From: a virus
DNA length: 64,000 bases
Direction: 5' to 3' (one strand)
IMG/VR virus record: IMGVR_UViG_3300009370_001603
Location: 1-64,000 of that record
The first letter of the stretch is position 1. The number at the start of each line of letters is the position of its first letter. Positions 13,428-61,900 of the stretch are shown piece by piece. The notes below the pieces were generated by a model. That model did not search any database, had not been told where the DNA came from, and saw only the letters and a program-made list of their open reading frames with translations. The translations under genes were made by a program, and so were the position numbers.

Positions 13428-13428
13428 A

Positions 13429-15111
13429 ATGAGAAAAAAAAGAATTCTTTTTTGCAGTGAGGCCACGTTCTTAAATACAGGATATGCTACTTACACCCGT
13501 GAGATTTTAAATTATCTTCACGGCACAGGTAAATATGAGCTAGCGGAAATGGCCTCATATGGCCAGAGAAATGATCCGAGAGCAGAAGGCATCCCTTGGC
13601 GATACTACGGCGTAGCACCGAACACTGAGTGTGAACCAAAAGCATCTAAAGAGGAAATAGATGCATACAACTCTTCTGGATCGAACCAGTTCGGAGAGTG
13701 GATTTTTGAGCATGTATGCCTAGATTTCATGCCAGATATCGTGTGTGATATTCGGGATTTTTGGATGCTTGAGTTTGCCGAAAGGTCGCCATTTAGAGAT
13801 TACTTCAAGTGGTGCATTATGCCAACTGTAGACGCTAGGCCACAGGCGAGACAGTGGGTTTCCTCATACGCGAGCGCAGATGCCTGCTTTACATATTCAG
13901 ACTGGGCTGGTACTATACTAGAAGATCAATCTGGAGGAAAAATAAACTATCTCGGAAGCGCCCCTCCATCTGCCCACCCAGCCTACAATCCGGTAGAAGA
14001 TAAAAGGATGCAGAAAAAGCAGTTCGGACTAGATCCCGACTGCAAGATTATCGGAACCGTAATGCGTAACCAAAGACGCAAACTATATCCAGACCTATTC
14101 GCTGCGTTTAAAATGTTCTTGGATAAAACGGGAAGAAAAGATGTATATCTTTATTGCCATACTTCATACCCTGATCTTGGGTGGGACTTGCCAGAGCTAA
14201 TTCAACAAAACGGTTTAGCTTCCCATGTAATGTTCACATATATATGCCCAGAAACAAAGAGGCCGTTCCCATCTCTGTTCAAGGGGGCGGTAATCCAATC
14301 TCCCTTTACCGGCAAATGGGGATCAACCCTGTCGAACGTTAAAAACGGAGTATCTTACGAGGATCTCTCCTCGATAATTAGTTTGTTTGACCTATACACA
14401 CAATATGCAAACTGTGAAGGATTTGGTCTACCATATGTAGAAGCTGCTGCCTGTGGCATCCCAGTGTGTGGAACTGACTATTCTGCTATGGAGAGTGAAA
14501 TTAGAAAGCTACAAGGCTATCCGATTAAACCCAAAGCTCTTTACAAAGAACTTGAAACAGGATGCTTGCGAGCCGTCCCTGACAATGAAATTGCGTGCGA
14601 TTATTTCGCATCATTCTTCGCAAGACCGGAAGAAGATAGGCAGGCAGAGGGAAAAAGAACCCGCGAGAATTTCCAAAAGCACTTCCAGTGGCACCTAAGC
14701 GGGAAAAAATGGGAAGATTATTTTGACAGTGTTGAATTGATGCCGGTCGAGCAAACTTGGTGCTCTGCACCCAAAATAGCTCCCCCTTCGCCAAAGCCAG
14801 AAAAAATACAACCCAACGCAAATCATAAAGATTTAGCCAGATGGTTGATCGTAGAAGCTCTTAGAGATCCCTCAAAGCTAAATTCTTTTTTTGAAGCAAG
14901 ATTGACTAGAGACTTAACTTACAGGAGTGCAACCTCGTCAACGGGGGGTATGTATTTCAATGAGTCTTCAGCCGCGTTCGACGGCTTAAATACAAGAACT
15001 CCATTTGATTTTGATATTGCCTACGAGAACATGTGCCACCAGCGAAATAGAATTAATCAATGGGAGCAAAAAAGAATAGAAACAATGCGGGAGCGAGGCT
15101 TGATGCAATAA
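13429..15111 (+). CDS. GT-B glycosyltransferase (family 4/1 type) with C-terminal extension
   Basis: A retaining-type GT-B glycosyltransferase. The N-terminal Rossmann domain begins RILFCSEATFLNTGYATY; the C-terminal nucleotide-sugar domain has CEGFGLPYVEAAACGIPV (an E-x7-E motif, about residues 325-342). A Pro-rich linker at about residue 455 leads to a roughly 100-residue extension with no recognised domain. The start at 13429 is preferred because the stop of ssb ends at 13427 and an upstream ATG in the same frame falls inside ssb. Total length is 560. It opens the glycan island. Donor and acceptor cannot be read from the sequence. Confidence 0.82.
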   Translation: MRKKRILFCSEATFLNTGYATYTREILNYLHGTGKYELAEMASYGQRNDPRAEGIPWRYYGVAPNTECEPKASKEEIDAYNSSGSNQFGEWIFEHVCLDFMPDIVCDIRDFWMLEFAERSPFRDYFKWCIMPTVDARPQARQWVSSYASADACFTYSDWAGTILEDQSGGKINYLGSAPPSAHPAYNPVEDKRMQKKQFGLDPDCKIIGTVMRNQRRKLYPDLFAAFKMFLDKTGRKDVYLYCHTSYPDLGWDLPELIQQNGLASHVMFTYICPETKRPFPSLFKGAVIQSPFTGKWGSTLSNVKNGVSYEDLSSIISLFDLYTQYANCEGFGLPYVEAAACGIPVCGTDYSAMESEIRKLQGYPIKPKALYKELETGCLRAVPDNEIACDYFASFFARPEEDRQAEGKRTRENFQKHFQWHLSGKKWEDYFDSVELMPVEQTWCSAPKIAPPSPKPEKIQPNANHKDLARWLIVEALRDPSKLNSFFEARLTRDLTYRSATSSTGGMYFNESSAAFDGLNTRTPFDFDIAYENMCHQRNRINQWEQKRIETMRERGLMQ

Positions 15112-15791: not shown

Positions 15792-16924
15792 TGAAAGTAC
15801 TTTACATAGGACACTATAAAGAGTTTGGTGGCTGGGCCGAGGCTGCCAAGAATTATATCCTAGCGCTGGACTCGGTTGGAATAGATGTTGTTTGCAGAAA
15901 TGTTACGCTCACAGGAGATAAAGAAATATCAGGCAGACTCAAAGAGTTAGAAGACAAGAGCACTGACGGCTGCGACGTTTGCATACAACACGTTCTTCCT
16001 CATCACCTTTGTGGGTCAGGTAGGTTTAAGAAAAATATAGCTTTTCTAGCCTCAGAGTCCGTGAGCATCAAACACTTACCTTGGTTTGACTACCTTAAGC
16101 AGATGGATTCGATATGGGTTCCGAACGCCTGTTCCAAAAAGCTATTAGAAGAAGATAATATCGGTATACCAGTCTCTGTTGTTCCCCATACATTTGATAC
16201 ATCTAAATATAAAAAACAGTATGAAACTATAAATATACCAGATGTAGAAGGTAATTTTGTATTCTACTACATAGGGGACATGAACGATAGGAAAAACTTA
16301 GAGTGCGCAGTAACGTGTTTTCATTCTGAGTTTGATAGGGCGGAAGATGCCTCCTTGGTAATTAAAATAAATAAGTTTGGACACACTCCGGAAGAACTAC
16401 ACAATATGGCATCGGAGAAAGTGGCACAAATTAAATCTAGGCTTAGACTGTATGCCGACCTAGCTGGCTACAAAAAAGATATTATCATACCAAATCAAGT
16501 GCCCGAAGAGACCCTCTACAGCTTACACCAGCAGTTCCATTGCTTCCTTTGCCCCTCTCACGGAGAGGCTTGGTCGATCCCCTCGTTTGAAGCCATGGCG
16601 TTTGGCAGCACCCCAATATGCGGTGATTTTGGTGGCCCTCCGGAGTTTATATCTGACGATGATAAGACTGGGAAGTGTGTGGATGGAGTATTCTCCAGTT
16701 GTAAATGTAGCGACTCTGCATTTCCAGATTTATTTACGGGTAGAGAATACTGGTTTACACCGTGTGAAAGGCAGATTAGACAGCAAATGAGAAAATACTA
16801 TGAAGCATATAAGGAAAACCCAATCAAATACACTGTAGAGAATAAGTCTGCTGGCCTAAATCGGGCAGATCAGTTCTCTTTTGAAGTTGTAGGACAACTC
16901 ATGAAGGATATTCTCAATGACTAA
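15791..16924 (+). CDS. GT-B glycosyltransferase (family 4 type)
   Basis: A 377-residue glycosyltransferase beginning MKVLYIGHYKEFGGWAEAAKNY. The central VPHTFDT is the domain linker; FYYIGDMNDRKNLE opens the C-terminal Rossmann domain. PSHGEAWSIPSFEAMAFG (E-x7-E) is the donor-binding motif, near residue 260. The start is at 15791, overlapping the previous stop as TAATG. It is adjacent to an FkbM methyltransferase and another GT-B enzyme, consistent with stepwise assembly of a methylated glycan. Confidence 0.82.
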   Translation: MKVLYIGHYKEFGGWAEAAKNYILALDSVGIDVVCRNVTLTGDKEISGRLKELEDKSTDGCDVCIQHVLPHHLCGSGRFKKNIAFLASESVSIKHLPWFDYLKQMDSIWVPNACSKKLLEEDNIGIPVSVVPHTFDTSKYKKQYETINIPDVEGNFVFYYIGDMNDRKNLECAVTCFHSEFDRAEDASLVIKINKFGHTPEELHNMASEKVAQIKSRLRLYADLAGYKKDIIIPNQVPEETLYSLHQQFHCFLCPSHGEAWSIPSFEAMAFGSTPICGDFGGPPEFISDDDKTGKCVDGVFSSCKCSDSAFPDLFTGREYWFTPCERQIRQQMRKYYEAYKENPIKYTVENKSAGLNRADQFSFEVVGQLMKDILND

Positions 16925-17930
16925 CCAAACAATCCGCATTATAGATAGGGTAGAGAAAAGGGATAAGTATAATATCCTGACATTCGATACCCACGAAAGA
17001 TACCAAAGCCAGCTCGCCAAGACTGGGCATAACTTCTACTCATTTAGATATGACGATTGTAAAAAATGGGAGGAGTCATACGCCAAGCTTCCAGACAACT
17101 ATTATATCCTGCCAGAAAATTCAATCATCAGTGGCCTGAACATTGATTTTATATTAAGCCAAAGTAAGTTTGGACAGTTTCAGGTTGCCTCAAAAATCCA
17201 AGGGGTCTTGAACGTTCCGATACTTTCGCTTGAACATACGTTACCAATACCCAGTTGGCCGAACGAGCAGTTAGAATTATTCAGAAGTATGATTGGCGAT
17301 GCCAATGTTTTTATATCGGACTATTCGGTGCAAAAATGGGGCATGAACTGTCCGGCTAACGTCATTCATCATTCTGTGGATAGCGACACGTTTACGCCGA
17401 CCGACGCCGAACAATCAGTTGACATACTTAGTGTTGTCAATGAATTTCCCGAACGAGACTACTGCTGCAACTACAATGGTTGGCAGCGTATCGTGTCGAA
17501 GTTTCAATCGGAGTCGAAAACTGTTGACGTTATTGGTAAGGGCAACGAGTCAATTCCAAACATAAGAGGCGGCGTTGCGAACGGTATGGAAGATTTAGTT
17601 TCTAGGTACAATGGGTGTAAGGTTTTCCTAAATACATCTACAATAAGCCCCGTACCGACATCCTTGCTGGAGGCCATGTCTTGTGGATGCGCCGTTGTTA
17701 GTACCGCTACCTGCATGATACCAGAAATAATCGAAAACGGAGTCAATGGCTTCCTGTCTAACGACGAGGGGGAACTCAGGGATTATGTTGAAAAATTGCT
17801 TGCAAACCCCAAGTTGGCAGAAGACGTGGGCAACGCAGCAAGAGAAACAGTTCTTAACGATTTTTCAGAAGAACGATTTATCAATAACTGGAACAAAATA
17901 TTTGATGACTTATACGGAGCACAAAGATGA
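16917..17930 (+). CDS. GT-B glycosyltransferase (family 4 type)
   Basis: A 337-residue glycosyltransferase. VIHHSVDSDTF marks the interdomain linker near residue 152, and SPVPTSLLEAMSCGCAVVSTATCMIPEII near 245-273 is the donor-binding region. GVNGFL and a C-terminal FSEERFINNWNKIFDDL helix complete a family 4 pattern. It overlaps the preceding gene by 8 bases and the following one by 4 (ATGA). The N-terminal domain is shorter than usual. Confidence 0.8.
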   Translation: MTNQTIRIIDRVEKRDKYNILTFDTHERYQSQLAKTGHNFYSFRYDDCKKWEESYAKLPDNYYILPENSIISGLNIDFILSQSKFGQFQVASKIQGVLNVPILSLEHTLPIPSWPNEQLELFRSMIGDANVFISDYSVQKWGMNCPANVIHHSVDSDTFTPTDAEQSVDILSVVNEFPERDYCCNYNGWQRIVSKFQSESKTVDVIGKGNESIPNIRGGVANGMEDLVSRYNGCKVFLNTSTISPVPTSLLEAMSCGCAVVSTATCMIPEIIENGVNGFLSNDEGELRDYVEKLLANPKLAEDVGNAARETVLNDFSEERFINNWNKIFDDLYGAQR

Positions 17931-33968: not shown

Positions 33969-34664
33969 TTATGATACTAAAGATGGTATCTCTTCGATTA
34001 AATCTAACTTCTCTTCCACCCTATCTATATTGGTTCCATAAATAGGACCAACAATTACTCGGCTTGTTTCTTTGAACCTTTTAATTCCCGACCCAAAACA
34101 AATGACACCTATCACCTTGCCCTTATAGATAATAGGCCCCCCAGAATCCCCCTGAATAGCCCAAGAAAAAACAATGTGTCCGCCTGAGCCTAAGTTTTTC
34201 CCCCCGTACTTTGCTATCCAGTGGCGAAAATCTTCTGCCCCATATCCACACATTTCGACCGTAGCTCCAATTGGAACATCGTCTACGCTTATCTTCATGG
34301 GTTCTATGGAGTCTGGTATTAAGGCGCGTATGATTCCATAATCTTCAAAGGGATCAATAGATCCAGACTTCAAAACAACTCGACCTTGATCCACAGATTC
34401 TCCAGTGTTAAATATGACTGTGAACTCCGTTGCCATCTCCTTAATACAATGTGATGCTGTAAGAATCCAGCCCACATAATAACCCTCAACCCTGCTATCC
34501 TTCACACGCTTAATAACGGTTCCACTTCCACTGAATCCATCGCCCGCAATCTTAACTATACTTGAATGATAATCTGCTTCTTCTGATGCTGGCCAATCTT
34601 GGGCGACCATAGCCTGAACTGAAAAAAAACAGAAAACAACTGACAAAAACATTTTCTTAAACAT
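33969..34664 (-). CDS. Secreted trypsin-like serine protease
   Basis: A 231-residue chymotrypsin-fold protease with signal peptide (MFKKMFLSVVFCFFSVQAMVAQ). The triad is complete: H72 in TASHC, D108 in FEDYGII, S174 in QGDSGGP. The start at 34664 is chosen because AAGGGG lies 7 bases upstream and the -10 element at 34708-34713 would fall inside a longer frame. Exported proteases of this type are unusual in phage genomes. Possible roles are host envelope or surface-protein cleavage, virion maturation or lysis; none is shown. It lies last on the minus strand, apart from the membrane gene by 100 bases. Confidence 0.85.
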   Translation of the reverse strand: MFKKMFLSVVFCFFSVQAMVAQDWPASEEADYHSSIVKIAGDGFSGSGTVIKRVKDSRVEGYYVGWILTASHCIKEMATEFTVIFNTGESVDQGRVVLKSGSIDPFEDYGIIRALIPDSIEPMKISVDDVPIGATVEMCGYGAEDFRHWIAKYGGKNLGSGGHIVFSWAIQGDSGGPIIYKGKVIGVICFGSGIKRFKETSRVIVGPIYGTNIDRVEEKLDLIEEIPSLVS

Positions 34665-34707
34665 AGTGTAACCCCTTACTGCAATCAATCTATATATTAC
34701 TAGCAAG

Positions 34708-34764: not shown

Positions 34765-34995
34765 TTATAATTTTTTTGAATATATCTGCCAAAATACGTG
34801 GCCGCATAAGAAACCAAAGATAAATGGTATAACAGGCCACCGTCTCGCCGCTTCATATAGAACAACACTAAACGTTGCTTCCTGAGCTTCAGGCATGTCG
34901 TTAAAATGTATGTTCCAGAGTAGAAAAAGATCCCATCCGGCGACAATAAAGATGATAAGCAGAATTATTATTCGTGTTATGAGTGCGTAAGTCAT
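34765..34995 (-). CDS. Small two-span membrane protein
   Basis: A 76-residue protein with two hydrophobic segments: about residues 5-28 (ITRIIILLIIFIVAGWDLFLLW) and 53-71 (PVIPFIFGFLCGHVFWQI). Between them lies YEAARRWPVIPF, a pattern I have seen in small phage membrane proteins. A holin-like size and topology is possible, but no lysis enzyme is visible beside it other than the protease downstream. GGAG lies 8 bases before the ATG. Confidence 0.6.
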   Translation of the reverse strand: MTYALITRIIILLIIFIVAGWDLFLLWNIHFNDMPEAQEATFSVVLYEAARRWPVIPFIFGFLCGHVFWQIYSKKL

Positions 34996-35023: not shown

Positions 35024-35518
35024 CTACTGATTATTTGTAGATTCCATTAGGTTCTTGACAGAATTTTGACAGAACCCTTTGTCCCCCCGCTCAATTAGCT
35101 CGATAATAACACCCCCTAATACGTCTTGTGGCTTACTGAATATCTGTCGTAGATCATCATCCGGACAGTCAATTATATCGTCAGATAAGAACTCTATACC
35201 CTTTTCTCTCAATTGCTTCACTGTCTTGTCTATATTTTCCACTGAGTATGCTATGTGGTGTATGCCTCCAGTTCCTCCTCGTTCTTTTACCCATTCGTCT
35301 ACAATAGATCCGGGAGTCCCTTCGCTCACAAAGACTTCTGGTGAAGAGCCACAAATATCTACCAGAGCCTTGCAGTCTGCTTTCGATCCGTCGTCAAAAT
35401 CAATCTTAAACTCTGCCCCAACCTTGTAGCCCAAAAGAGAACAAAAAAAATCCGCTGTTTCGTCTCTGTCGGCCACCCTATACGCTATGTGATCTAAAGT
35501 TATTAATTCTATACTCAT
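35024..35518 (-). CDS. VOC-superfamily (glyoxalase-fold) protein
   Basis: A 164-residue protein with two betaalphabetabetabeta modules. LDHIAYRVADRDETADFFCSLLGY near the start, GGTGGIHHIAYSVENIDKTV near residue 83 and GGVIIELIER near 135 provide the usual His/His/Glu metal ligands. The family includes glyoxalase I, methylmalonyl-CoA epimerase and ring-cleaving dioxygenases; the paired H...H...E looks epimerase-like. Its place in a membrane-protein operon is unexpected. Function in the phage is unknown. Confidence 0.78.
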   Translation of the reverse strand: MSIELITLDHIAYRVADRDETADFFCSLLGYKVGAEFKIDFDDGSKADCKALVDICGSSPEVFVSEGTPGSIVDEWVKERGGTGGIHHIAYSVENIDKTVKQLREKGIEFLSDDIIDCPDDDLRQIFSKPQDVLGGVIIELIERGDKGFCQNSVKNLMESTNNQ

Positions 35519-35527
35519 TTACTCTTT

Positions 35528-36028
35528 CTATTTTGGTGGTAGTTTTAGTGGCGGTAGCGGCATGATGTCCCATGTCTCCGACCTGTTAGACAGGGAACCC
35601 TTGTCCTTGCCTTTGCCTTCCCCCTCGCCCTTTTGACCTTCCCCGTCGCCATCGGCACCACCCTCTGATTTTTTAAGCCTGAACGGTTTGCCTTTTCCTT
35701 GCTTCACGCCACCTTTTAGGGCCTCTTTTAGTTCCTTTGAATACTTTGCATCTATCAGCGTAGGGGGCCAACCATCACCGGTCTTTTTATACATGACATA
35801 TATCCTCTTTTCCTCAAGGTTGATTGCGTGGCCATACACAATGATATCATTTGGTATTGACTTTACGATGGGCTTACCTGCATAAAGAGATATAACTCCA
35901 AAACTGATAAGAGAGGCGCAGACAACTGAAATTACCAATCCGGTCCTCAGTACAATATCTTTAAATCTAAATATTATAGCAGCACAAGAGATGATAGATA
36001 TGATCAAATTTAATATAAATGGAAACAT
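35528..36028 (-). CDS. Membrane protein with low-complexity Gly/Lys/Glu tail
   Basis: A 166-residue protein with two hydrophobic segments (about residues 3-20 and 28-50) and then a soluble region with IIVYGHAINLEEKRIYVMYKK near residues 62-82. From about residue 110 it is very rich in Gly, Lys and Glu (GEGKGKDKG), ending in a Pro-rich MPLPPLKLPPK. It is coupled to the ExbD-like gene upstream by a TAATG overlap, so it probably belongs to the same complex. Not recognised. The Lys/Gly/Glu tail could bind nucleic acid or envelope polymers, but that is speculation. Confidence 0.55.
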   Translation of the reverse strand: MFPFILNLIISIISCAAIIFRFKDIVLRTGLVISVVCASLISFGVISLYAGKPIVKSIPNDIIVYGHAINLEEKRIYVMYKKTGDGWPPTLIDAKYSKELKEALKGGVKQGKGKPFRLKKSEGGADGDGEGQKGEGEGKGKDKGSLSNRSETWDIMPLPPLKLPPK

Positions 36029-36588
36029 TATTGCAAAAACCCCTCTAGTAATTCTCTTTGTAGTTGAACATTTTTAACATTCCCATCTTTATCTATATAA
36101 AATGAAACTATGGGGACTTCTTCGTTATGGGCTACTTGCACGGTTGTTCTGAATATGTGTTTAAACGGGCGTGATTTTTGAAACTCAATAGTGACGGTTA
36201 TGTGGGTCTTATTTTTAGGAACCCTATATCCGTGCAAAGAAAACATGTACTCACCCTTTTTGGCCGTTTCTATTGTCAGGGTTTCCCTAGCCTCCAACAG
36301 TTTTACACCGTCCACGGCTCCATATTCTCTAGATGTGTTATCGTTATGAAGGATGAATACATCGTTTTCCCTTCGTTTATACCCCGTTATAGAGTCTGCA
36401 TTATCAACCCTCATGGCCCAAGTATCTATATCTGCATTGTCTTCAATGGGCCAGCTTATGTTCAATATGAACTCAGCCGTTGGTGGAGGGGCGGGGGTCT
36501 CGTCCTTCTTTTTTACTGGGTTGTACAGGAGAATCATGCACACCAATAATATTAAAACCATATCTAGAAAGCATATTGGAATCTTCAT
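36028..36588 (-). CDS. ExbD/TolR-like membrane protein with atypical C-terminal domain
   Basis: A 186-residue protein. The N terminus IPICFLDMVLILLVCMILL has the ExbD/TolR hallmark: a proline and then a lone aspartate (D9) inside the only transmembrane helix, the proton-carrying residue of the family. A Pro-rich linker (PAPPP) follows. The periplasmic part is not the usual ExbD domain: it is beta-rich with NADIDTWAMRVDN near residue 52 and HGYRVP near 119, and IVSFYIDKDGNVKN near 160 resembles the end of ExbD-type domains. It overlaps the ExbB-like gene by 4 bases. The pairing of both genes is the main evidence for the function. Confidence 0.65.
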   Translation of the reverse strand: MKIPICFLDMVLILLVCMILLYNPVKKKDETPAPPPTAEFILNISWPIEDNADIDTWAMRVDNADSITGYKRRENDVFILHNDNTSREYGAVDGVKLLEARETLTIETAKKGEYMFSLHGYRVPKNKTHITVTIEFQKSRPFKHIFRTTVQVAHNEEVPIVSFYIDKDGNVKNVQLQRELLEGFLQ

Positions 36589-37010
36589 TCGTCTTCCCTC
36601 AAAAATATAACGTATGTATAAATAAACAGACTACATACTATCCCAACAATGGTGGTGTTTAATACTGTGGACATACCGTTTGTTATTAATTTATGTTTAA
36701 GCTCCTCGTCATCTACCGCCCCCAGAGATGCAAATAAAAAGCTCATGCCAATAACGGTACCCAAGAGACCAAGCATTTGTGCTATGTTAGACATGTCATT
36801 CATTTTCTTCATGTGGTATGACTTTTTCATCACCTGACGAAAACAAAATAGTATGGAAGAAAAGCCCAGCAATAATATTGCATAGCAAATAAATGTTATG
36901 TCAGCAGACGCCATAGAGCTAAAAGCGGAGAATTGAAATTCTGAAGCGATCAATGACACTAGCCCCACGCTTGTTATCGACAGCCATTTTAAAAAGTTTT
37001 TTGATTTCAT
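36585..37010 (-). CDS. ExbB/TolQ/MotA-like proton-channel protein
   Basis: A 141-residue membrane protein with about four hydrophobic segments. The third and fourth carry the family signature: MLGLLGTVIGMSF (residues about 79-91) and MSTVLNTTIVGIV (about 113-125), with threonines in the TM2/TM3 positions known for ion conduction in ExbB and TolQ. It lacks the large cytoplasmic domain of ExbB (244 residues) and so is a minimal form. A downstream ExbD-like gene overlaps it by 4 bases. The gene lies just after the structural terminator at 37049-37076; AAGGGTTACA precedes the ATG. Confidence 0.72.
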   Translation of the reverse strand: MKSKNFLKWLSITSVGLVSLIASEFQFSAFSSMASADITFICYAILLLGFSSILFCFRQVMKKSYHMKKMNDMSNIAQMLGLLGTVIGMSFLFASLGAVDDEELKHKLITNGMSTVLNTTIVGIVCSLFIYTYVIFLREDE

Positions 37011-37103: not shown

Positions 37104-37889
37104 TTACAGGTACTCTAGTGTGAAATATAGCCCGTAATCAGTTTTGCTTCCAATCGACTGTGGAGAGGCACTAAGAGCAAGATACCAGTCGTGTCGAGTA
37201 GCCCTGTGAGCTGGACCCTCTTTAGTCTTCCAGTTGAGATAACCGTCCGCGCCGGGGCCAACCAAGTTGGCAGAAGGTAATGGATCACCATCAACGGTAT
37301 TTAATCCGCTCATTCCGGGGGAGGGGGTAAAGGTCATATCCGGCGGAGTGCCGCCATCGCCGGGGTCAAATTCAAACCAGCCAAAGTTATCAATACCTCT
37401 ATGGGCTAAAGACCCACTTCCAGCCAAGTTTGTGGCTCCAATAGCATGTCCCTCTGTGGCGTGCGGGTGCCTAACTTCTAGCACCTGAGTGGTAACGCCG
37501 CTGGCGTGCTTTGCGATACTAGCCCTATCAAAGATTCTAAGCTTACAGTTCTGAGTAGCAACCGCGTCAGTATGCTCAAATCTAATATTTAATGGTGCAT
37601 ACCAGTTTGGAATTCCTGAAGTTTCCGCTGCTACAGCGGTCCCATTCGCTTTTATTCCACTTACAGACTGATATTGAGTATTCTGTAACTTTACACCGCT
37701 AGTAGTGCCGTCGCCATTGGTTACATAGCTGGCCTCTTGATATTGGGCAACTGGGACTGATAGGCCAAAACCTGCGCCATAAAAGCCAATTCCAGACCCT
37801 TTTGTGTGTTCTATGAGTGATGGATCAGTATTCCACGCGGTACTATACCCCGTAGTATTACCATTCGCATGAAATGTAATAGTAGCCAT
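37104..37889 (-). CDS. Putative abundant structural protein (own promoter and terminator)
   Basis: A 261-residue protein beginning MATITFHANGNTTG, rich in Gly, Thr, Ser and Ala, with a beta-strand-like pattern and no signal peptide. It has a textbook ribosome site AAAGGAGAA 7 bases before the ATG, an excellent promoter at 37915-37943 and a strong terminator at 37049-37076. Such an isolated, well-expressed single gene next to tail genes fits a virion protein made in many copies (tail, fibre tip or decoration). No family is recognised. The C-terminal ending YGLYFTLEYL is typical of a terminal beta strand. Confidence 0.6.
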   Translation of the reverse strand: MATITFHANGNTTGYSTAWNTDPSLIEHTKGSGIGFYGAGFGLSVPVAQYQEASYVTNGDGTTSGVKLQNTQYQSVSGIKANGTAVAAETSGIPNWYAPLNIRFEHTDAVATQNCKLRIFDRASIAKHASGVTTQVLEVRHPHATEGHAIGATNLAGSGSLAHRGIDNFGWFEFDPGDGGTPPDMTFTPSPGMSGLNTVDGDPLPSANLVGPGADGYLNWKTKEGPAHRATRHDWYLALSASPQSIGSKTDYGLYFTLEYL

Positions 37890-48114: not shown

Positions 48115-49956
48115 TTATCTGTCCAGTTCATACGTAAATGATACATTAAAACTATAGGTTCCGGCCTTTGGGTTCCAGCTTTCTGACGGGGGAGAAATGA
48201 AACACTTTCTAATTCCGGGTTCCTGTTGGGGGCTTACTTCTTTTAGTAATTTTGCCAACTGGGTGGCTGTAGGCTCTACAACGCTAGGTTTTTTAAGCAT
48301 GATTGGATCTCTACCCGACCCATATGGGATTTTAGTATAGTCCATAACTAAATTTATTGAAACATCCCTTTTATGCTCAGTTCTACCTCCAATGTACTGT
48401 AATACCGGCCCTGTTTTTCTTCCCAGTACGGGAATGACAGCAAACACGTCTCCGGGATAAGTATCGTTTACTTGAATACTTTCCGTTATAGCCCCTGATA
48501 TTATATTAGTCGGCCTATTATCAAACGCCAAGCTATAAGTCAGGTTACCGGTAAATTTATTTGCCCCTATACTCACGCTGGCAGGCTGTGAATTAAGGCC
48601 AACGGCAACCATGTTGTTCGCACGCTTATAAACATGGCTACCAACGCCAAAGAATCCAGAATTTGTTATTTCATTATATTTACTTAGTGCATTATCATAA
48701 GCGTTAACTCCAGACTGAAGGGGATTAATAATTGAGCTGCCGTCCAATCCTCCATGAAAAGTACCGCTTGGGCTAAACGTTGAAAGACCTTTTATGGTGC
48801 CGTCTACCGACACCTGTACAAAAGGACTGTTGTTTGATGAGCTAACCTTTAAATTGAAATTCTCGTAGGCAACACCGCTGGATAGAAACCAGTTCTCAGT
48901 AACAGAAAATGTTCCAGCGGATTCGCTTACGTTTTCCGTTCTTACTAGGTTAAATCCACCATATTTATCGACGAGATTTAGAGTTCCGCTACCGATTTTT
49001 CCAAATACATTTGGGTATCCTTTTGCGCCATCGCTAAAGAGTCGATTGGTTACGAACTTCTTCGCAGACTCCCAAGCCGGAATTTTTGTCGGCGCTGTCC
49101 CCTCGGGATCTTTATGCATGTAATGCGTCTTACCGGCGGCATTAATAGTGTGAGATATCCTGTAACCTCTGGGGGCGACAGTGCCATCCCCCAAATTTAC
49201 CTCTGCTGACGATCCTCCGTCGTCCACTTGGACGGCCCAGCTTTCAGAAAAACTTTTAATAAAGGCGCCACTTAGTGCGACAACTAGGTCTTCATTAGAA
49301 ACTAGTTGAACTTCTCTGGGGTGTTTCCTATCCGAATCCCCGCTACCAATCGGAATCAATGTTCCATCTAAGTCTGGTCTAATTCCGGCAGCCTCTTGGT
49401 GTAGCAGAACATCCGCTTCCAGATTAATAGTAAAATCAGATTTATTTGTATAAGTACCCTCACTGAAGTTAATGCTAACCACCCTTGGGTAGCATATAAC
49501 TGCGGGTATGTCTTCTCTAACGTCCGTAATTTCAAGTCTTTGACCGTCTTGTGCGAACAAGGCCTTCAACGATCTCTGTTTAGATAGAATGGCTGAAGCT
49601 AGGTTCTCTTGAGGAACCTGCTGTCTAGGGGGTTTATTTATGCCGGTGTGAGACCTGTTGCTATCAAACGCTCCATAGGGGCCGATATGTGCTGGCACGG
49701 GGCTAGTTCCAGCCCAAAACGGATAAGGGCCATCTTTAACAGAAGTCCTTCCCGCCTGCCCGTCTGCAACGTGGTCAAGCGCATACGGAGATCCCTCATC
49801 CGGTAATAATGTACCAGTTAAAGTTATTGTATAAGTGACACCAAACGCTTCCCCAGCTCCATTTTTTAGTATATTTGTATTAATACTAACTAGCGGAGTT
49901 GGACGTATAGTACACTCTTGAGATGAGTCATTCTGATATCTGATTCTGATAGGCAT
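48115..49956 (-). CDS. Tail or baseplate protein
   Basis: A 613-residue protein whose N terminus (MPIRIRYQNDSSQE...VTYTITLTGTLLPDEG) and later segment (PAVICYPRVVSINFSEGTYTNKSDFTINLEADVLLH, about residues 150-185) follow a beta-rich pattern seen in phage tail proteins. SLKALFAQDGQRLEI near 129 belongs to the same pattern. The start overlaps the stop of the giant protein gene as TAATG, so the two are coupled. Function as a tail-tube-end or baseplate component is inferred from context. Confidence 0.55.
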   Translation of the reverse strand: MPIRIRYQNDSSQECTIRPTPLVSINTNILKNGAGEAFGVTYTITLTGTLLPDEGSPYALDHVADGQAGRTSVKDGPYPFWAGTSPVPAHIGPYGAFDSNRSHTGINKPPRQQVPQENLASAILSKQRSLKALFAQDGQRLEITDVREDIPAVICYPRVVSINFSEGTYTNKSDFTINLEADVLLHQEAAGIRPDLDGTLIPIGSGDSDRKHPREVQLVSNEDLVVALSGAFIKSFSESWAVQVDDGGSSAEVNLGDGTVAPRGYRISHTINAAGKTHYMHKDPEGTAPTKIPAWESAKKFVTNRLFSDGAKGYPNVFGKIGSGTLNLVDKYGGFNLVRTENVSESAGTFSVTENWFLSSGVAYENFNLKVSSSNNSPFVQVSVDGTIKGLSTFSPSGTFHGGLDGSSIINPLQSGVNAYDNALSKYNEITNSGFFGVGSHVYKRANNMVAVGLNSQPASVSIGANKFTGNLTYSLAFDNRPTNIISGAITESIQVNDTYPGDVFAVIPVLGRKTGPVLQYIGGRTEHKRDVSINLVMDYTKIPYGSGRDPIMLKKPSVVEPTATQLAKLLKEVSPQQEPGIRKCFISPPSESWNPKAGTYSFNVSFTYELDR

Positions 49957-52900
49957 TATTTACCCCTAAGTCTTAAATTTAGGTTGTCCGTAGTTTGGGT
50001 ACTAGTAACATTTAGGTTCAACGATTGATTGGAAGAACCGCTAGCTACAGTCACAATTAGCGGCAAGCCGCTGTCAGAAACGACGCCACTAGCCCCAAAA
50101 GTCCTTAAGTTCATACTATTATACACATATGCGGACGGAGCACCCGATAACATTAGGCTCATATGTCCGCTCACATCCACTGGTTTTCCGGATGTAATGA
50201 GGTTTAATGAGCCGTTTGCAGACTCACCACCAACGAAGTCCCCTATAACACACTCAACGAATGGTCTATGGGTCACAAAACCCTTTATTGATGGATCGAA
50301 ACCAGACGCTTCAATATACAAATCTCCGTAGGCGTTGGAGAATACGATTCCAGATGTCTCATGTGTTATTGGATCTCCGGTCTCATTTTGGTACACGCGA
50401 TCTAGTAACATATTTTGGCCGTCGTCTGTTTTAGCTCCAAATATCTTTACATCGATCCAGCTTCCAGAATTAGGTATGGATGGGATCTGCCCCCTCAGCA
50501 TGGCGTCATAAGTAAAGGCGGCCCCAGCGTCCGTCACGCCACTCGAATGGTGGTTTCCGCTCGTGGCATGATCATGGAATGGAGAGCCAACGGCTAGGGT
50601 GTAATCACTGTCTCCTCTTTCTGACCTGAATATAGAAACAGACCTACCAAAACTATCATTCTCGCATCCGCTAGAAGTTAAATTGTCTCCAATGTAAATA
50701 CTGCCCGATCTGGCGTGATACCCGTGGGAGAAGAGTTTTTCTGCATAAACCCATTCTTTTGTCCTTGCTTGCCAGTCTGTAATACTATGTCTGTAATTAA
50801 ACACCGCCCCATGATTAAGAACCATAGTTCCGCTGTCTGTATCAAAGTAGTCAACCCTAATCCCAGAACTGCCTAAATCATAGAATTTGTGTGATGGTAT
50901 GTCGAACTCAGCCCCGAAACTCTTTCTTTGGAACGCTGTGTTTAAATCATTTGTTACCACCGCGCCGCTATAAATATGCTCATGAAGCGTCTCGTAATCG
51001 TGATGTGGGGCACCGATTGCAATCATATCTGCGTCAATTGCTACAGAGTATCCAAACTTATCAGTTCTACCACCATTATTAAGAGCAAAATCATTGTTTA
51101 AGTGATGATCGCCTTTAATCGTTTGTAGGGTAGAAATAGTAGCACCATCAAGCCCGATGTTAATACTACTCGGTTTAATTTTTTGTCTGAATTCCCAAGG
51201 TAGTCTTTCGTTAACAACATTCTTTCCACTGCCAGTTTTCTCAAAGTAGAACGCAGCTCCAGCTCCACCGTTTTGACTAACCACGACCCCAGACCTGAAT
51301 GGGTCATTTTCTATTTCGTGCCACTGAACTATGCCGCTAATTCCGCTTGCAACATTTTCCGTAACGAGACCATTGAAGGGTGTGCCAACAATAAGTTTGT
51401 TATTTGTTAGGTCAACCGAGAAGCCAAATAGGTCTCCGGGACATCCCGAGTTATAAGAATCAAAGTCTAAGAAGTCTCTACCTTCTGCTACTTTCATTAA
51501 GTCATTAACGCCGCCTTCTGAACCCGCATCAACTAGGAAATCTTTCTCTACACCATCCACAACGTAGTTTGTGGGAAGTTGATTCAGGAAGTCACCACTA
51601 AATCTGGGATACCCACCATAGTCGGGATAGACGCTGCCTCCAAAATATTTAATTTCGATGTCTATTTGCTTAGGGGTTGATGGGTCTGCCGGTCTGCCCA
51701 CGTCGTTCGCTGGATGATAAGTATCTTCATTGTCTACAAATTCATCTACGGTTCCGTCACCATTCGCGCCATAGAGTGGGAATAAAGTATTGGCTACGCC
51801 CTTCGCGGCATAATACTTAGGGGCGCTGCCTCTCTCTGGTGCGCGTAGTTTTTGGGTAAACTGGAATACCTTATCGCTAGTCGTCACGTCGAAACCGCGA
51901 CCACCAAATTCCTTTCTCTCGTGTGGGCTTACGGGGTACAGGCTTCTGATAAAGAATTGATTTTCACCAACAGAATCATTTCTATAGTGCTTGCATTGCC
52001 CTTGAATCATAGTGGAGTCTGTAAGTACTACAATTTTGGATCTTTCAAAACCATTCGCGCCATTTGTGAAATGCTCATATTCTTCTGCCGCAACAATTGG
52101 GCCATCTTCGATTTCTTCATCGCCGCGTGGAGCACAGCACGTCTCATCCTTGGGCGGTGGGCACGGGGGATTAGCTGGATTACAATACTCTTCACTTCGA
52201 TGCATGATCGGCCTAAAGACTCCCGGTATCACGCCTTCTTCAGCGGGAATGGTCTCACACTCTTCTCTGCAATCCCAGCCAATTATCCTTTTCCCTTCTT
52301 TTGGTTTGTTTAGAATTTCTTCCTCAAGCGGAAGTGGACATCCCGATATAGACAATATTCTGGCGGTTTGAGGATAACCATTTGCTGGGTCGTGGCCCTT
52401 GCCACCGGCCTCATCGCACTGTTCTACCCAAATTTGCTCTTTATATATATCCGTATCAAATATGATTCTTAATTTACCAGTCTGGTCTGCTTTCACATCT
52501 ACGTAAGACTGTTGTACATTGCCAACCGTGGTTGCCCCCAAACGACAATTTCCACATTCTTCGTTTGGATCACAAGTGCCACAATCGTGGAAATCCTCAT
52601 TATACCAGCAACCATTTCTAAGGTTTCGCTGGGGCGCAACGTTTTCGTCGGTCATTTCAATGATACCATGACAGTCGCAGGGAGGCTGCGGGAAGGTACC
52701 ATCCCATGCGCACGGGGCGTTCGCCTCAAAGACATTCTCAGCGACACCAAACGTCCCATATATTTCATTCTTGGTCTCAGACACCCAATTCACAAATACC
52801 CTATAGCCGGAGCCGGGATTAACAGGGAATTGACCGCTAGCCTTACAGTCTAGATACCAGAGATTTTCTTTGTTGACTTCTGGACATATATCATATACCC

Positions 52901-55900
52901 CTTGCCACTGGCTGTGTAATTCGGGTGTATCATACCAAATTAAATTTTTGTAATCTCCGCCGCCAGAAATCGGAATAAAATCAAACAAATCACCCTCGTC
53001 CCAGCCACAATCTTCTCCATTGAAAATATCTTTTTCATCGCACTCGTGGTCAGGGCTGTGTCTCAGTGATACCTTTTGGACAGATGTTCTCTCTTGAGAG
53101 TTATAGTTTTTATCCCACGCATAACCATGTAAACAGCCTGCAAAAACATCGGAATCAAGTTCTAGTTTTTGCAATATTGTATCAGTGTCCTCCGGGGCGT
53201 ATGGGCAACAATCTTGCCTATTGCCCTCATCCACTATCTTGTTGGTTTGAACAAAATAATCGCCCTTGCACGGTCTGAGCCAAGGCCTACTCTTTAGCCC
53301 AAGTTTCTCAAGTAGAACTGAAACATTTTCCGCTAGGCCCTGCCTGTTCTCTCTGTGCCATCCAGCATAAGTGATGAATAGCTTCTTGTTTCCATTCTTC
53401 AACCAATTTTTTAACACGGAAATGTCATCGTCTGTTGGCATTCCATCCGGATTAGCAATCCAAACAGTGTCAACAGCCTCAGTGCCATCAATATCAACTC
53501 CGGGTCCGTACACTTCATTCTCGGTAACATTAATACCAAAGGCGGTTAGCTTTTCTTTTATAACTGAAAATTCATAAGCATCTTTAAAGGAGGTTCTCTT
53601 TGTCCACCCACCAAGCTGCACTAAGCGACCGGCTTCCTCACAGCTTTTCCTTACTGTATTTACATAAAATACTATGTTTTGATCGGAATTGCCCCCTATA
53701 TCGTCACCACCAAGAGAGTCGGTAAAGCTACGCTCATTTTCTCCATTAACAGAGGCTAAAATAAACACCCTATTATTCCCGTCTACAGTTTCCCCCTCGT
53801 CATTCTTGTATAGGTATGGTTCTTCAACCATTAATGTAGACTTTTTATCGAGCAATACTCTTTTATCTACAACCGTGACTTTTTCTTTCACGTCTCCTAT
53901 TCCCTGTAGAATTGCATCTCTGCCATTCTTGGGGTCTGGATTTATAAAGCCACCCTTGTTATCGGATAATCTCCAATATTCTATATTCTCACCTATAGAC
54001 TGCCCCGTGAAGTCTCCGGAAACAGAGAAGGCCAAGGTGTCTAATTGATGGGTTGCAAATTTGCATTCCTTATAAAATTGAGGGATGGTAAAGAATTCCC
54101 AAATTGGATCGCATACCGTCTCACAAATAGTTTCCTCTGGGCGAAACCAATGTTGGTCCGGTGTCCACTCTGCCGCCGTCAGGATTGGAACAACATCTTC
54201 CCACGGCCTATTAATCAAGGGTTTTGGTGATGAGGGATAGTTTCTACATGGCGATCCTATAGGCCCACTCTTATCTGAATTCGTGAAGTGGAATGGCCAG
54301 TTCATCTTATACTTATGGGGCATCCCATTATCTTTTGCGCACGTTACATTCCATTGCGCCCTAAGATCTCCAAGATGCTTGATCGGAAGGTTACAAACGG
54401 TCTGATTGTCCTCGTCACATGGTGAAGACACAAACAAATCTTCAAGACCTAAATCAGACACGTCGTATACGATCTTTCCAACGCCCTTGGCAAACATGTT
54501 GGGAGCAGCATGTTTTGATTCATAGGTATCAGTGTAAGCATTTTCTGGAACAAATGACTTGGTAACATTCCATCTATTCCCAAATACATCAGTTTCACTA
54601 ATACATTCCGGAAGAGACTCATATTCAGTGTCGGCAGCCTCAATTTTCATTCGAGAGCCGAGTCTTTTCAGGATCTTATTAACTATATCGTTGGATTCCC
54701 TGTAGAGACCATCTTCCTCATAAAGCGGATCATTACCAACCAAAACCAAGGTTCTGTCGCCTAGGGCTAACCAGTTTTTAATGTTATCAATAATTTCATC
54801 GCTGGCAGCATCTAGTTCTGGTGTAATTATAAATGCAAGCCCAGCGTTTCGTGGTATTTCTATGGTAGAAAATGGCAATCTTGTAAATGGTATATTGTCG
54901 GGCTGGAAGTAATTACCCATGCGATCATAGAAACCAGCTTCACGAAGCTCATGATGAACTGATCTGTCAAGATTTCCAAACCTCGTGAATTCTACGGCTC
55001 CGCTATGGGAAACGTACTGTTTAGCTTCAAACATTCTCACGGCACCGGCGTTTGTATACGAAGCAAATGTAGCCTCTTTGGCGCCCCTGTTGTACCACAC
55101 ATTGCTATCCTCAAACATCGTGGTGGAATCTGTGGGCGCTCCAAACGCAACGGTTATTCCGTCATCATCTACGGAGGTGCTATATCCCAGCCTAGAGCTT
55201 CCTAAGAACTCACCTTGAATAAATTGCCAAGTTCCAGTGGTTGTAATATCGCCATACTTGTAGTTAAATATGGGCTTATATAGTTCAATGGGAAGTCCGT
55301 GACCGTTTGTTCCCTTACCAATACCATCCCAGAAATTTTTATCTGTCCTTAGCCAAAGCTTATTAGTCTGAGAAAGCTCATGATAAGTTTGTTTCTTGGC
55401 ATAATCAGCCCCATGTTCTAGAACTAAGGCATCATATCTAGCCAAGGGAATCTCAAGGTTCCTATAAACAAGCCAGTCCCGAATCTTATTATACATTCTT
55501 TGGTTTTCTGCGTCTTGTCGCTCGAAAATTTCGCAAGGAACATACGTCCACGGAGAACCTACCGAAATAACATCCGAATTTTTACTGATTGCAACAGAGT
55601 GGCCAAACCTGTCGTTGTATTGCTTGCCAAAACCCAAGAAGTCATCTGGAGCATCCTGTTCATTCTCTTCATTAACCTGTCTTTCGCTATATGGTATAAT
55701 TTCTTGCACACAGTTAAATGTGCCGCTCTCTTTTTCAAATACAAAAACCCTACCACCAGAAGAGGGGGGAATTTGGAATTCCGCAGCATTGGACTTTGCC
55801 CACTTTTGACCAACGCCACTCGTGATGAAGCTAAGGATTGGATATGGCGTATTTTCAATGTTGTTATCTATCAGATAGCCAGAGTTCAACGTGTTGTTAA

Positions 55901-58900
55901 TCAGAGACGCTGTGGTTAGCTCCATTTTCTCAGACGCACCAAGTTCTATTCTGGTATGGCCAGACATGGGAACGGGAATCTCTGGATTGACTACTCCGCT
56001 CGCATGACTGTACTCTTTATAGAAATCAACAAAATCGTCCACAACATCTTCATCGCCTAACTGGAAGGCTTTACCAAAGAGTGTACTGTGGCTATTCTCT
56101 TTAAATATACCTACAATTGGCGGTATTCCACTGTGAGGCTCAAAGGCTGTCCAGTCAGTTTTCGGAGGGAACATCTCTCTGAATGCGCCAATAATACCAC
56201 TAAGCATAGAGTTATAGGTATTCCTAGCTCCAAAATTATCTACAAGCTTTTGGTCATCCATTCTTGGGATATAGGTATGTGAGAAGAAATCTTTAAACTC
56301 GTCTGGATGTTTTTTCTTGTCCTTATCGTGATCTGTAAGTTGAAGTATGAGACATTTTACGTTTAAGTTTGGCTGAAATTCATTTGCAGTTTGGGCATTC
56401 CACGGGGCTGAGAAATATTTGTACAGGTGCTCCCATTTCTTACCAACATTTTTTATATATTTTATATTGTCAACATTGTAGGTAAACTTGTCAACAAAGA
56501 CCACCATGCACATTGGGATGCCGGAGGTAGTAATATCTGGGAATCGTCTAGACCAACCGGCGAAAGGTGCTCCAGCAACAATGGTCTCCCTGTCTCCGCT
56601 CTTGGCGATGTCTACCGAGCTTCCAAGCAATCTACCCTCTTGACCTATATTCCATTTTCGTCCAGATATGGTGAATTGATCAAATGTTATTAAGTTTTCA
56701 ACAACTTTGTCTACATAATCTCGCCTAAATCCAGACGGGAGCATTAGCTTATCTTCCATCGTCCAGATAGACTTTTCACCAGCAACATCTTGCCCTCTTC
56801 GATACAAGAACAGCGATCCGGCATCTGGTATGGCATGGCCAGAAGCATCTGGGATTTCTATCTTGGGTGAACCAACAACCATCAGATCGCTGGTAACAGC
56901 AACGGCCTCCCCGTAATTATCAGTTGGGTTTCGTCCGGATATGGGTGTGATGGAAAGATTACCACTTAGATATGGATAGTCGCCAATTAATTTAACACCA
57001 GAGTATACAATGTCAGAATCACAATCTCCATCGCCTTGATCCCCGCCCCTCCAGTTCGGGCCACATATTCCGTATTCCCACTCTTCAAAGTCTCTAGGCA
57101 CTTGAATGGAGTCTGTAGACCCAGTAGTTATTTTAAGGGTAGAGTAATAAGGGGCGTTTGGAATCAAACCAGTATATTTTCTGAAGCCGTAATAGTTCCC
57201 GCTATAGCCAGTCTCTCCGGCAAAGTTTATAGCTCCGGAGTTTGTGTATGTATTGACAGCTCTGAATATACCTCCGTCATTACACGTTTCTGGTCTCCAT
57301 ATTGTTTCGTCGGTCACGAGGGGTGGATCAATGGCTTTTCTTGGACTATCACTATCACATGCTCCATAGCCAATTAAATCAACACCCCTGATTTCGTTTG
57401 AAACCGGTATGGCCGCAATTGAGTTATCTCTTAGTTGGATGCCGGTACCATAATTTTGGTTATACCATCTTAGGTATGTGGAACCTACCCCTCCATAGTT
57501 TGGAACATATAGGTTCATTCCAAGTTGTGAGGCTCCGCCGTCCGACGCTTCGCTTCCGGAGGAGGAATTTGCTTGACTAGTTACTTCGTCGTCTCCGTAT
57601 ACCGTGAGCTTTAGGGTTCCGGAGGTAACAAACTGGTTATTAACTACAACCAGAGGCATTTCAACTTCTGGGGATCTATCTATTAGTTCGGCACCACCCA
57701 ATATATAGACTGGTATCGTGCCCGAATGAGGATGAGGATCACCCGCTAGATTATTCTCTATACGAAGCTGCATCTGCTGGAAAAAGCCCGTGCTATTGCC
57801 AGATGGGGCGTAGGTATACAGAGGTAATTCGCCGCCACTAGGTGTAATTACTAATCCGTCATTAGCAATAGACAGGGGCATCTGCAACGTAGAGATGCCT
57901 TTACCTTTCGTTACCAGATTAAATGTGCCAGAAGCCCCGCTAACAACATTACAACAACCAGCGGTGTGTAGTGGGAATTCCGGGTCAGACGCGATAGCTA
58001 CAGCTACGGTACGTAGTGGTAAAGCCCCATCTTGTCTAAGGGAGCCGCTAACATTCAGCTCAAAACCAGATTCAGGCAATAAGACTGGGCCAAATGTGTT
58101 AAGATTAAGTATGCCACTATCTTTTGGAGCCACCGAAAGCGTATGTAAATCAAGGCTTCCCTTCAAGACATCTGTGCAACCACTAGCATATAGGTTAAAT
58201 ATGCCTGAGTCGGGCGTACACTTCACAAAGGCTTCATCCATTCTGACATGAGCGCTATGAATATCAATATTAGAGTCGAATGCTCCGCCAGACGGATAGA
58301 CCAAATCATATTGCAAGAACATGTCGTCAACATCTTGCGAATAATATTTTTCGGTAAACTCAGTCAGTCTTGGTTCTGCCGGGAATAATGCCCACTGTTC
58401 TGAATCATCAATAAGATTTTGATAATCAAACTTACTATCCAGCCTTACCATATAACTAGAAGGTTGAATGTAATGAATGGACCTGTTAATTAAGCCCCAG
58501 TTGCTTTCATTAGGAGTCCAATAAGGTTCTTTTTTCTTCGTATATAAGCTTACGACTAACCTTGGGCCTTTATAGTGATCTTGGTAAGCGTGTTTATGTT
58601 CATTGCAAAGATGGAAGGTGGTCGGTTTGCACTCTGGCCATTGAATGTCATTATCGGCTCTGTGTTCAAGGACAGTTTCGACAACCAAGGCCTTGTCTTT
58701 AAAGTTGTACCCAATAGGCAGACTCTTAGTTATTCTCTTAGCTACAGAGTGGAAGTTGTCCGACGTGTCGCTTAGGTGGAACCGCAAGAAGTCATTTTCG
58801 ATTTGGGTGTGATAGGAAACGCCGCTACTAATCGTCGAGGGCCAAGAGTTCAACGATAGAGAGCTTTGATTCTCATATGGAATGCCGCTATGTTTCAGGT

Positions 58901-61900
58901 GGAAACTAATTAAATCTTTTCCAGCCCTTTTTGTCCAATGGCTAAAGGCAGAGCTAAATGCATGAGTCTTGAAGTCACCTAACGCCCAGTCTGCTTGAGT
59001 ATCTTCGTTTACGTAGTCCCAGAGCTTGTACGTATCGTTACTGCTAGGCTCTCCCGGCTCAAAGAACTTAACCCTATGATTTTCCAAGAACTTCTGAGCT
59101 GTGACCTGTTTGTATGTCGCGTCAGCATTGGTTTCTACAATGTTGGTTCCTGAGCCATATACGCCACTATTCCAAGTAGAGATTCCAAATTCGGTCAGTA
59201 GCATATTCATTCCAACGCCAGAACCGTCAGAGTGACCAACGATTAAATTTGCACTATTAGTATGCTTTGTAAACTTACTAGAAGATGCTCTAAGTGTAGT
59301 CCAAACGCCGGAGTGGAATTCATTATCAGTATATAGTTTTAGCTTCTCGCTCTCATGATCATTATATGTGAGTATAACAGACAGTGGGTATTGATATCCG
59401 CTATACTTTACAGTGTCTTGAACAGAGACCAATGTTCCGTCTGTGGCTTTAGCGTAACCGCATAAGTAGCCGTCTTTATAACCAAGGGCGAAATCCATGT
59501 CTGATGGCGTAGTCCATTTAGAGAAAAGTACGCCAGAGCTAAATAAATCATAAGTTGTTCCCGACACATCTATATCTGGTGTGAATCTCGTGAAGATAGA
59601 GAATCCTCCAGAGGCGTCAATATTACCAAAATTAACGTTCTGATTATGGCCAGATATTCTTACAACGTTATCAAGAGCATCGGCAATCATACCATATAAT
59701 TCATGGTCTTCAAAATTGTGTGCCGGGGAGGTGGAAGACAATGCCGTCCAGTCTGTTGTTTTGTAGCTACTGGTGTGATTAGGTGCTTTTGTACTAAATA
59801 TATTCTGAGTCTTAAATCTCCACCCGACATTCTTGTAAATCTCAGGCGTGGAATTAAATAGTCCACTTACTCCACCAAAGCCTGCTCCCAGCGATCTAGA
59901 TTGAACATATTTTCCATCCATGTAGTCAAAGTTATAGAAACCGGACAGAAGGGGGAATTCAAGTAAAGGATTATAAAATCCAAAGCCAAACGCATCAGTA
60001 TCGTATGGACCCTGAACGGTCCCCTCTAACCCCCTCCACCTTCTAGAGTAATTAGATTTAATGCTAGAGGGGGTGCTATAGGCATGTGGAATATTAGTTA
60101 TAGTTGAAAGCGGGCCATATCCAGAACCGGCATTTATTATGCTGTCATTACCCTGCTTTGTGGACGGGAAGATTTTACCTTCAGATCTTCCGTCTTGTAT
60201 TTTATCAAAACACTCTCCACCCTGAATCTCAAGTTGTAGCGCGGCCTGTGGGGCATATCTAACCAGTAGATGGGCGCTGGCAATAGCGGCTCCGCTGGGG
60301 AGTGGGTATATGTCTAAATACAAATGTTCAAGCATAGAGCTGACATTGTAATTTCTGGAAAGCCCGATCTCTACATCATCTTTGTATACCTTTAGTGGTA
60401 CTTCATAGTCAGCAAAATCTGTTGTATTAACTATTGGATATCTTGTCAGGGAATAATGGTCTCCCCCTAAGTTGCCGCTTGTCTCTAAATATTTTTCCCT
60501 CTCAGATATACTTCTGGTAGATAACGCTAAATCGTCATCGTTGTCATAGTATCCAGATATAACAGGGTGAGTGCCCTCGCTGGTTATGATCTCCCCATTA
60601 ATCTGGACTGATGACGGGTTCTGTAAAAATCCGCTTGGAGCTTTTGTGATATTGAGGAGTTTGTCGTCGCTCCACCCAACAATGTCTAGCACATAGTCTC
60701 GGGAATCTGCTGCCTTCTTTGCCTTTACCTTTAGTGTAATAGACTCTATGGCCAAGAAGTTATTATCAAATCCAGCTTCAACTTTTCTTTCTGTTTGAAA
60801 TGCTCCGCTCGGGTGGAACCAAATTGGGCAAGTGTTTTGATCAAACTCGCACCCAAATGCTCCCCGCCTGATCTCATTAACAGGCCCGTGGCCATAGCCA
60901 AACTTTACAATCATCTTGCCAGAATCAAAATGAGGCCCAGTACTGTGCAGCTCGGCATAATCTAAGGTAGAATCAGTCTGCAATGCCTTGACAATCTGTT
61001 CAGAACCACATGTGTCCAAGTTATTACCAAGAATGCTAGAACTACCATCGTACATTGGCTTGTTCTTATGCTGCCACACACTACTTACTGCTGGGAAAAT
61101 TCCACTATTACTTGCGTCAGCTAAGGCAAAGAACGACGGTAAGATTTTCTTTTCCAGTCTTCTCCCGTTTCGCGGAGTGTCTAGAAAGAGATTAAAATAG
61201 TCCTCTCGTCTTGGTCCAGTGTATGAACTCAGCCAGTCCCCACCGCTGTTACAAATTTCTATAGCAGAGATTCTTATGCTTTTAGTTGGATTAATTAAAG
61301 ACTGGCCTTGCGTTGATAGCGGAGCACCGTCCAATGCTAGGTAATCATCATCATCCGCAACGGTCGTGTGCATTACATAGTCTTCTTCAAACCCTTCGTC
61401 AAATCCGGGGTCAAACGCATCGTCTCTCGGTGTAACCTTTACCTCGAAAGAGAGTTGATAACCAGTGATTTGATGTGTGTGCGGTTGGTCACGACGCTCC
61501 CAGTCATACTGGTCTGCAAACTTATTTGTAATTGGTTTTAAAGAATATGTAGCATAGTTAACAAGAGTTTTATCGTTACTATAGTCTACATCGCCAAGAA
61601 TGTTTATATCTTCATACTGAACCATCGCGTTCCCGGATGGGTCGGAAAAGGTAACGTTCTTAATCGTATAAAGCGGGGCTATTTTGGATTCATAGTTAGC
61701 CATCGGGGCAGATGCTCTAATCCGCAGTCTTGTCTGATCCGGCCTAATGTGGAAATCAGTTAACTCACTCTTGTACTGGAAATTGCCCTCAGTATGGTAG
61801 CCACTGGGGTGAATAAAAGAATTGGCGTCGTCGGCCAAAAGGACGCTTTGGCTAAAGGGGGTGTGATAATCCCCGGTAAAAACACCCTCATCTATAAATG

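Follow-up and report, generated by a model that had tools for sequence, protein, structure and literature searches.

The window analysed here, a stretch of 64,000 nucleotides covering positions 1 to 64,000 of the IMG/VR virus record IMGVR_UViG_3300009370_001603, is part of a 122.5-kb record whose matches to a phage primase, exonuclease and DNA polymerase and, at 107 kb, to a terminase identify it as a tailed-phage genome. On its minus strand, from 37010 to 35528, lie three consecutive genes, which we call B, D and T, with stop/start overlaps of 4 nt (B/D) and 1 nt (D/T). B (36585..37010) encodes an ExbB/TolQ/MotA-like protein of 141 aa with four transmembrane (TM) helices. D (36028..36588) encodes an ExbD-like protein of 186 aa, in which an N-terminal TM helix with a lone Asp (D9) precedes a predicted periplasmic beta-sandwich. 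T (35528..36028) encodes a third protein of 166 aa with two N-terminal TM helices, a predicted periplasmic alpha/beta domain, a low-complexity linker and the C-terminal sequence IMPLPPLKLPPK. After a gap of 9 bases, T is followed on the same strand by an ORF of the glyoxalase/dioxygenase superfamily (35024..35518; Pfam Glyoxalase_4, E=5.6e-14), which is probably co-transcribed with the trio and is no recurrent neighbour of it at other loci. Also on the minus strand are a 76-aa ORF with two hydrophobic segments and no Pfam match (34765..34995) and a secreted trypsin-like serine protease (33969..34706) with a signal peptide, intact TASH...GDSGGP motifs and matches to Pfam Trypsin (E=1.4e-8) and a PHROG protease family (E=3e-8). 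Just upstream of B, a terminator-like hairpin of 12 pairs on the minus strand (37080-37051) separates the trio from an upstream 261-aa gene. The first-pass annotation had placed the set between a terminator and a protease; the hairpin agrees with the first boundary, but the protease is not adjacent, with the glyoxalase-family and small membrane ORFs intervening.

The identity of B is the best defined of the three. The two segments on which an ExbB/TolQ-like assignment had been proposed, LGLLGTVIG and NTTIVGIV, are both present, and B matches Pfam MotA_ExbB (PF01618) at E=2.7e-11, with 43.7 bits against a gathering cut-off of 22.9. The same model is matched by 8 of 10 B relatives at E<=0.1, and the B-family profile in turn matches the solved structures of MotA, TolQ, ZorA, PomA and ExbB, the best PDB match being a MotA (1.7e-6). 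On these sequence matches, B belongs to the MotA/TolQ/ExbB proton channel superfamily. The threonines of ‘GLLGT’ and ‘NTT’ (T85 and T120) align with T145 and T178 of TolQ, which line the ion path in the Tol system. Conservation across the B family is high, with G81, G84, T120 and G123 at 99-100% (T120 at 99%), while T85 is present in 90% of members and replaced by Asn in 9%. The spacing between TM2 and TM3 is about 17 residues in the window B, as against roughly 80-110 in chromosomal family members, and median lengths are 168 aa for phage and 246 aa for chromosomal copies. No equivalog model passed its cut-off for B, so belonging to the family gives no guide to ion type or function. The ZorA model NF033917 matches 21 of 30 B members, the best at 2.5e-8, all below the ZorA cut-offs.

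D was described in the first-pass annotation as an overlapping second protein with an ExbD/TolR-like TM helix bearing a lone Asp, and its single TM helix, FLDMVLILLVCMILL, does carry one Asp, D9. This membrane Asp is retained in 108 of 108 phage and prophage copies. The sole D copy that has lost it, with Val/Ala in its place, is in a Rhizobiales MAG (L044, 4178-4864). The AlphaFold2 model of D (mean pLDDT 82, core about 90) places the TM helix at residues 5-21, followed by 10 strands forming an all-beta sandwich instead of an alpha/beta periplasmic fold of the TolR type. None of 10 D proteins matched Pfam ExbD at E<=1, the best 50 Foldseek matches of the D model include neither ExbD nor TolR, and no ZorB-type domain was detected; a TonB_C match stayed below threshold (E=0.068). 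Foldseek against the PDB returned nothing significant for D or T, and the three significant matches of D in BFVD are all large phage proteins without known function. The expectation that the pair would match both the MotA_ExbB and the ExbD profiles thus held for the first only. D resembles ExbD in its helix and Asp, yet by the sequence searches and modelling performed it falls outside the ExbD/TolR family, so that the pairing of B with D rests on the helix, the Asp and gene order.

The third protein is, as had been proposed, a coupled two-TM protein. A positively charged loop lies between its TM helices; by the positive-inside rule, the 115 residues that follow the helices would be periplasmic. 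In its model (pLDDT 74), a small alpha/beta domain is joined through a disordered linker to the C-terminal tail. Tails of the LPPxxLPxK type occur in 44 of 109 phage copies and in 18 of 39 cellular ones, whereas shuffling the tails yields about one. T matches nothing in Pfam and is unlike TonB or TolA by any profile; the SHLS motif, Pro-rich linker and TonB_C domain of a Ton-type third protein are replaced here by two TM helices and another domain. The sequence searches therefore leave D and T outside the ExbD, TonB and TolA families. T nevertheless appears inseparable from D, which it follows in 113 of 113 complete loci.

Searches of isolated-phage sequences gave no match for the window B or T and four weak Rhizobium phage matches for D; the only other relatives reached directly with the window proteins were two close contigs (L001 and L002). 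The wider family was reached by a chain leading from the window D to a Rhizobium D and then to profiles; none of the three proteins had a useful PHROGs family. The trio is present in 27 isolated-phage records, which represent 19 distinct genomes. These are phages of Rhizobium and Sinorhizobium, among them Innesvirus P10VF and 16-3, a classic temperate phage of Sinorhizobium meliloti (p038, p040 and p042), and the phage records examined annotate the three genes solely as hypothetical proteins. Profile scans of IMG/VR identified at least 347 stretches with a D relative, of which the best 80 were taken on. The order B-D-T is found in 113 of the 114 loci examined, the remaining one ending at a contig edge, and the first-pass suggestion that related phages would share these neighbours is borne out. 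Carriers range from 60-kb temperate rhizobial phages to contigs of 300-500 kb, the largest being 527 kb, and include temperate and virulent phages as well as integrated prophages (L046).

The genes surrounding the trio are far less constant. Among the window, L001 and L002, whose D proteins are 70-75% identical, the flanking genes are wholly different (PhoH and FmdB-like genes in L001, others in L002), and such variation even between close relatives indicates a self-contained module. Across loci, the neighbours are genes of DNA metabolism, terminase/portal genes and auxiliary genes, with a terminase-like gene about 4.5 kb downstream in 14 loci. Since the trio occurs in many different contexts, the place next to tail genes that the first-pass annotation gave it is not supported as a clue to function. 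In the window itself, the upstream ORF (37104-37889, 261 aa) and proteins of 1532 aa and 1664 aa match no PHROG or Pfam family, which leaves the upstream genes putative tail genes at most. We also considered a lysis cassette and rejected it, as no holin/endolysin family recurs beside the trio across the loci examined.

The only repeated theme among the neighbours is the envelope, represented by proteases, SbmA/BacA-type transporters (near the trio in 8 loci) and lipoproteins, small ones being found in one marine phage group. A trypsin-like protease lies within about 8 kb in 32 of 108 phage loci, on the same strand in 28. In isolated phages, a related protease is encoded in 23 of the 27 trio records (15 of 19 genomes) versus 14 of 50,670 other records. 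In P10VF, the protease is about 75 kb away from the trio. Shared ancestry of the rhizobial phages explains part of this link, but not the shift from an adjacent to a distant position with both kept. The protease is likely a functional partner of the trio.

By profile matching, the trio has relatives in alpha- and gammaproteobacteria, in a cellular system that has received little study. A genome scan returned 12 loci, of which the Shinella locus is a prophage, five other Rhizobiaceae loci group with 16-3-type phages, and two, in Chromatiales MAGs, are flanked by housekeeping genes (cmoA/cmoB, rpsA side) and free of phage genes. Of the genomes sampled, 41 of 369 from gammaproteobacteria, and 62 of 385 from alphaproteobacteria, gave a D-profile match; these counts are upper estimates of the chromosomal share because they include a few weak matches, some prophages and possible phage contigs in MAGs. 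The full trio is present in 34 of 36 chromosomal regions examined, and one gammaproteobacterial isolate that carries it is Plasticicumulans acidivorans. Several of these operons extend into a gene for a lipoprotein of about 230 aa (DUF3108-like, below cut-off) and others into one for a VWA-FHA protein. Chromosomal B-D-T (L040, L041, L042, L170 and others) is apparently a previously undescribed system, carried by perhaps around one in ten alpha- and gammaproteobacterial genomes. The downstream lipoprotein was rejected as a member of the phage module for most loci, being present in 6 of 108. Two further loci (L175 and L176, in G036 and G046) hold a diverged chromosomal B-D pair in which no T is detectable and which may be a two-gene relative of the trio system.

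In a tree of B and D, the phage copies fall mainly into one deep clade, separate from the main cellular clade, while in a second clade 16-3-type phages are mixed with alphaproteobacterial copies. Only five changes between phage and cell are required, although this is a quick tree with long branches and its details are unsure. The deep phage clade and the small number of changes point to an old phage lineage and not to recent capture from a host.

Reviews of this superfamily list motility, the Ton and Tol systems, type I secretion (SiiAB) and defence (ZorAB) as uses of such motors (PMC12204202; PMC9389320), and in the open-access literature we found no report of a phage-encoded ExbB/TolQ/MotA-like motor. 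The trio shares with ExbB-ExbD and TolQ-TolR the MotA_ExbB core and two pore threonines of B, the single, lone-Asp helix of D, and adjacent genes with a third inner-membrane protein, comparable to TonB or TolA. It differs from them in the beta-sandwich of D, which no ExbD/TolR profile recognises, in a B with four TM helices and almost no cytoplasmic loop, and in the lack of resemblance of T to TonB or TolA; no Pal/TolB or TonB-dependent receptor gene lies nearby. A four-TM A subunit and an Asp-bearing B subunit are also the arrangement of MotA-MotB and PomA-PomB, but the trio does not have the torque-generating cytoplasmic loop of these stators (17 residues remain), and no OmpA-like peptidoglycan-binding domain was detected. 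With ZorA-ZorB, B shares the MotA/ExbB core and a weak profile similarity. The closest published parallel is provided by vWA proteins in which an Asp-bearing helix is combined with a TolQ-like partner (PMC12204202). These force transducers, like D, place a periplasmic domain other than ExbD on the helix; D differs in having a beta-sandwich in place of vWA and in belonging to a fixed, phage-borne unit of three genes. In some chromosomal trio loci, a VWA-FHA gene is adjoining.

We propose, with moderate confidence, that the trio is a phage-adapted miniature motor of the MotAB/ExbBD/TolQR superfamily, driven by protons or another ion, and that it serves as a module of the host envelope and not as part of the virion or of lysis. 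The sequences show that B has both pore threonines along with the helices that form the pore, that D has the TM helix with the ion-binding Asp, and that T is the obligate third gene of the set. By analogy with the MotAB, ExbBD and TolQR families, five copies of B may encircle two D helices (5:2), and ions passing Asp9 of D and the threonines of B would turn or tilt D relative to B. The topology suggests that the beta-sandwich of D and the periplasmic domain and tail of T could transmit this work to a periplasmic or outer-membrane target, and the trio may often act alongside the secreted trypsin-like protease. Its spread over temperate and virulent phages, together with its relatives on chromosomes, makes a general function at the envelope more plausible than a tail-specific role in the window phage. 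As to what that function is, we conjecture that the motor supplies energy to maintain or remodel the envelope in the course of infection or lysogeny, with superinfection exclusion as the likeliest benefit specific to phages. A bolder and more tentative version, possible in our estimation, is that phages evolved their own machine, spanning the envelope and driven by protons, in which D is a new axle domain and T a new third subunit. It would perform mechanical work on the host envelope during infection, for example excluding other phages or holding the outer membrane together until lysis, and would be an undescribed class of phage-encoded rotary motor.

Several other explanations can be set against this proposal. 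The trio could be a host-derived auxiliary system with which the phage lets an ordinary envelope or nutrient function of the cell continue during the shutdown of host synthesis. The chromosomal trio counted above, often followed by a fourth gene for a lipoprotein, speaks for such an origin, as does the placement of the trio beside SbmA/BacA-type transporters and lipoproteins in marine phages. However, the phage and cell copies have long been separated, the cytoplasmic loop has been lost from phage B and most phage copies come without the lipoprotein, which makes this source somewhat doubtful. We consider it unlikely, if not strongly so, that the trio is an anti-phage motor, using the MotAB scaffold as Zorya does and sensing or blocking a second phage at the envelope. 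B matches ZorA models no worse than those of TolQ or ExbB, and temperate phages (16-3) and integrated prophages carry the trio; against this, every score is below the ZorA cut-offs, the long cytoplasmic tail of ZorA is missing from B, no ZorB-type domain was detected in D, and genes like zorC and zorD are absent among the recurrent neighbours.

An accessory role in lysis, in which proton leakage through the motor, or its disruption of Tol-Pal, makes the outer membrane give way in a spanin-like manner, would fit the envelope location, the link to the proton-motive force and the secreted protease close by, and lysozyme genes do lie a few kb from the trio in phages TM3_3_14B and X2_25. The varied neighbours of most loci, with no recurrent holin or endolysin, make it improbable, and a pure proton leak is less likely because prophages and chromosomes retain the trio, and in both a lethal leak would come at a cost. 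A role in powering genome entry, or a place in the virion, is suggested by the large, probably structural genes that precede the trio in the window and by the downstream terminase-like genes. We regard this as very improbable, for that context is not conserved, a membrane motor made after entry comes too late to serve the initial one, and tailed virions do not usually contain multi-TM proteins. Least probable of all is a decoy role, in which mixed assembly would poison a motor of the host (Tol, Ton, MotAB or Zorya). B is indeed a stripped-down motor subunit, but a poison subunit would tend to lose the Asp and threonines, whereas the phage always brings its own Asp-bearing D and keeps both pore threonines. 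The presence of the Asp in every phage copy, together with the 99% and 90% retention of T120 and T85, argues for selection on ion conduction and not for a decoy shell.

Ion-driven motors of the 5:2 type have known uses in motility, the uptake of nutrients, maintenance of the outer membrane, secretion and defence against phages. Here the three genes form a complete unit, strictly conserved and with its catalytic residues intact, across hundreds of unrelated phage sequences. If the proposed envelope motor is correct, phages would power work on the host envelope straight from the proton gradient. Because 16-3, a classic laboratory phage of Sinorhizobium meliloti, carries the trio, its role can be tested now.

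Some additional features of these phages were recorded. In marine phage contigs (L027, L030, L032-L035 and L110), a full SbmA/BacA-family peptide transporter is encoded about 1.6-1.9 kb downstream of D (Pfam E=1.3e-132 in L033), and phage contigs L030, L033, L034, L036 and L121 encode proteins that by sequence resemble BMP-like periplasmic solute-binding proteins. A GlpX-type fructose-1,6-bisphosphatase lies beside the trio in phage contigs L076, L077, L073, L100 and others (Pfam E=3e-101 in L076). Within the window, positions 49956-62738 encode a phage protein of 4260 aa in which an FG-GAP repeat match close to the C-terminus is the sole recognised domain. Two phage glycosyltransferase matches (13369-15111 and 16917-17930) fall inside a long plus-strand run of ORFs of 200-580 aa at 13-29 kb, which is possibly a surface or DNA glycosylation island.
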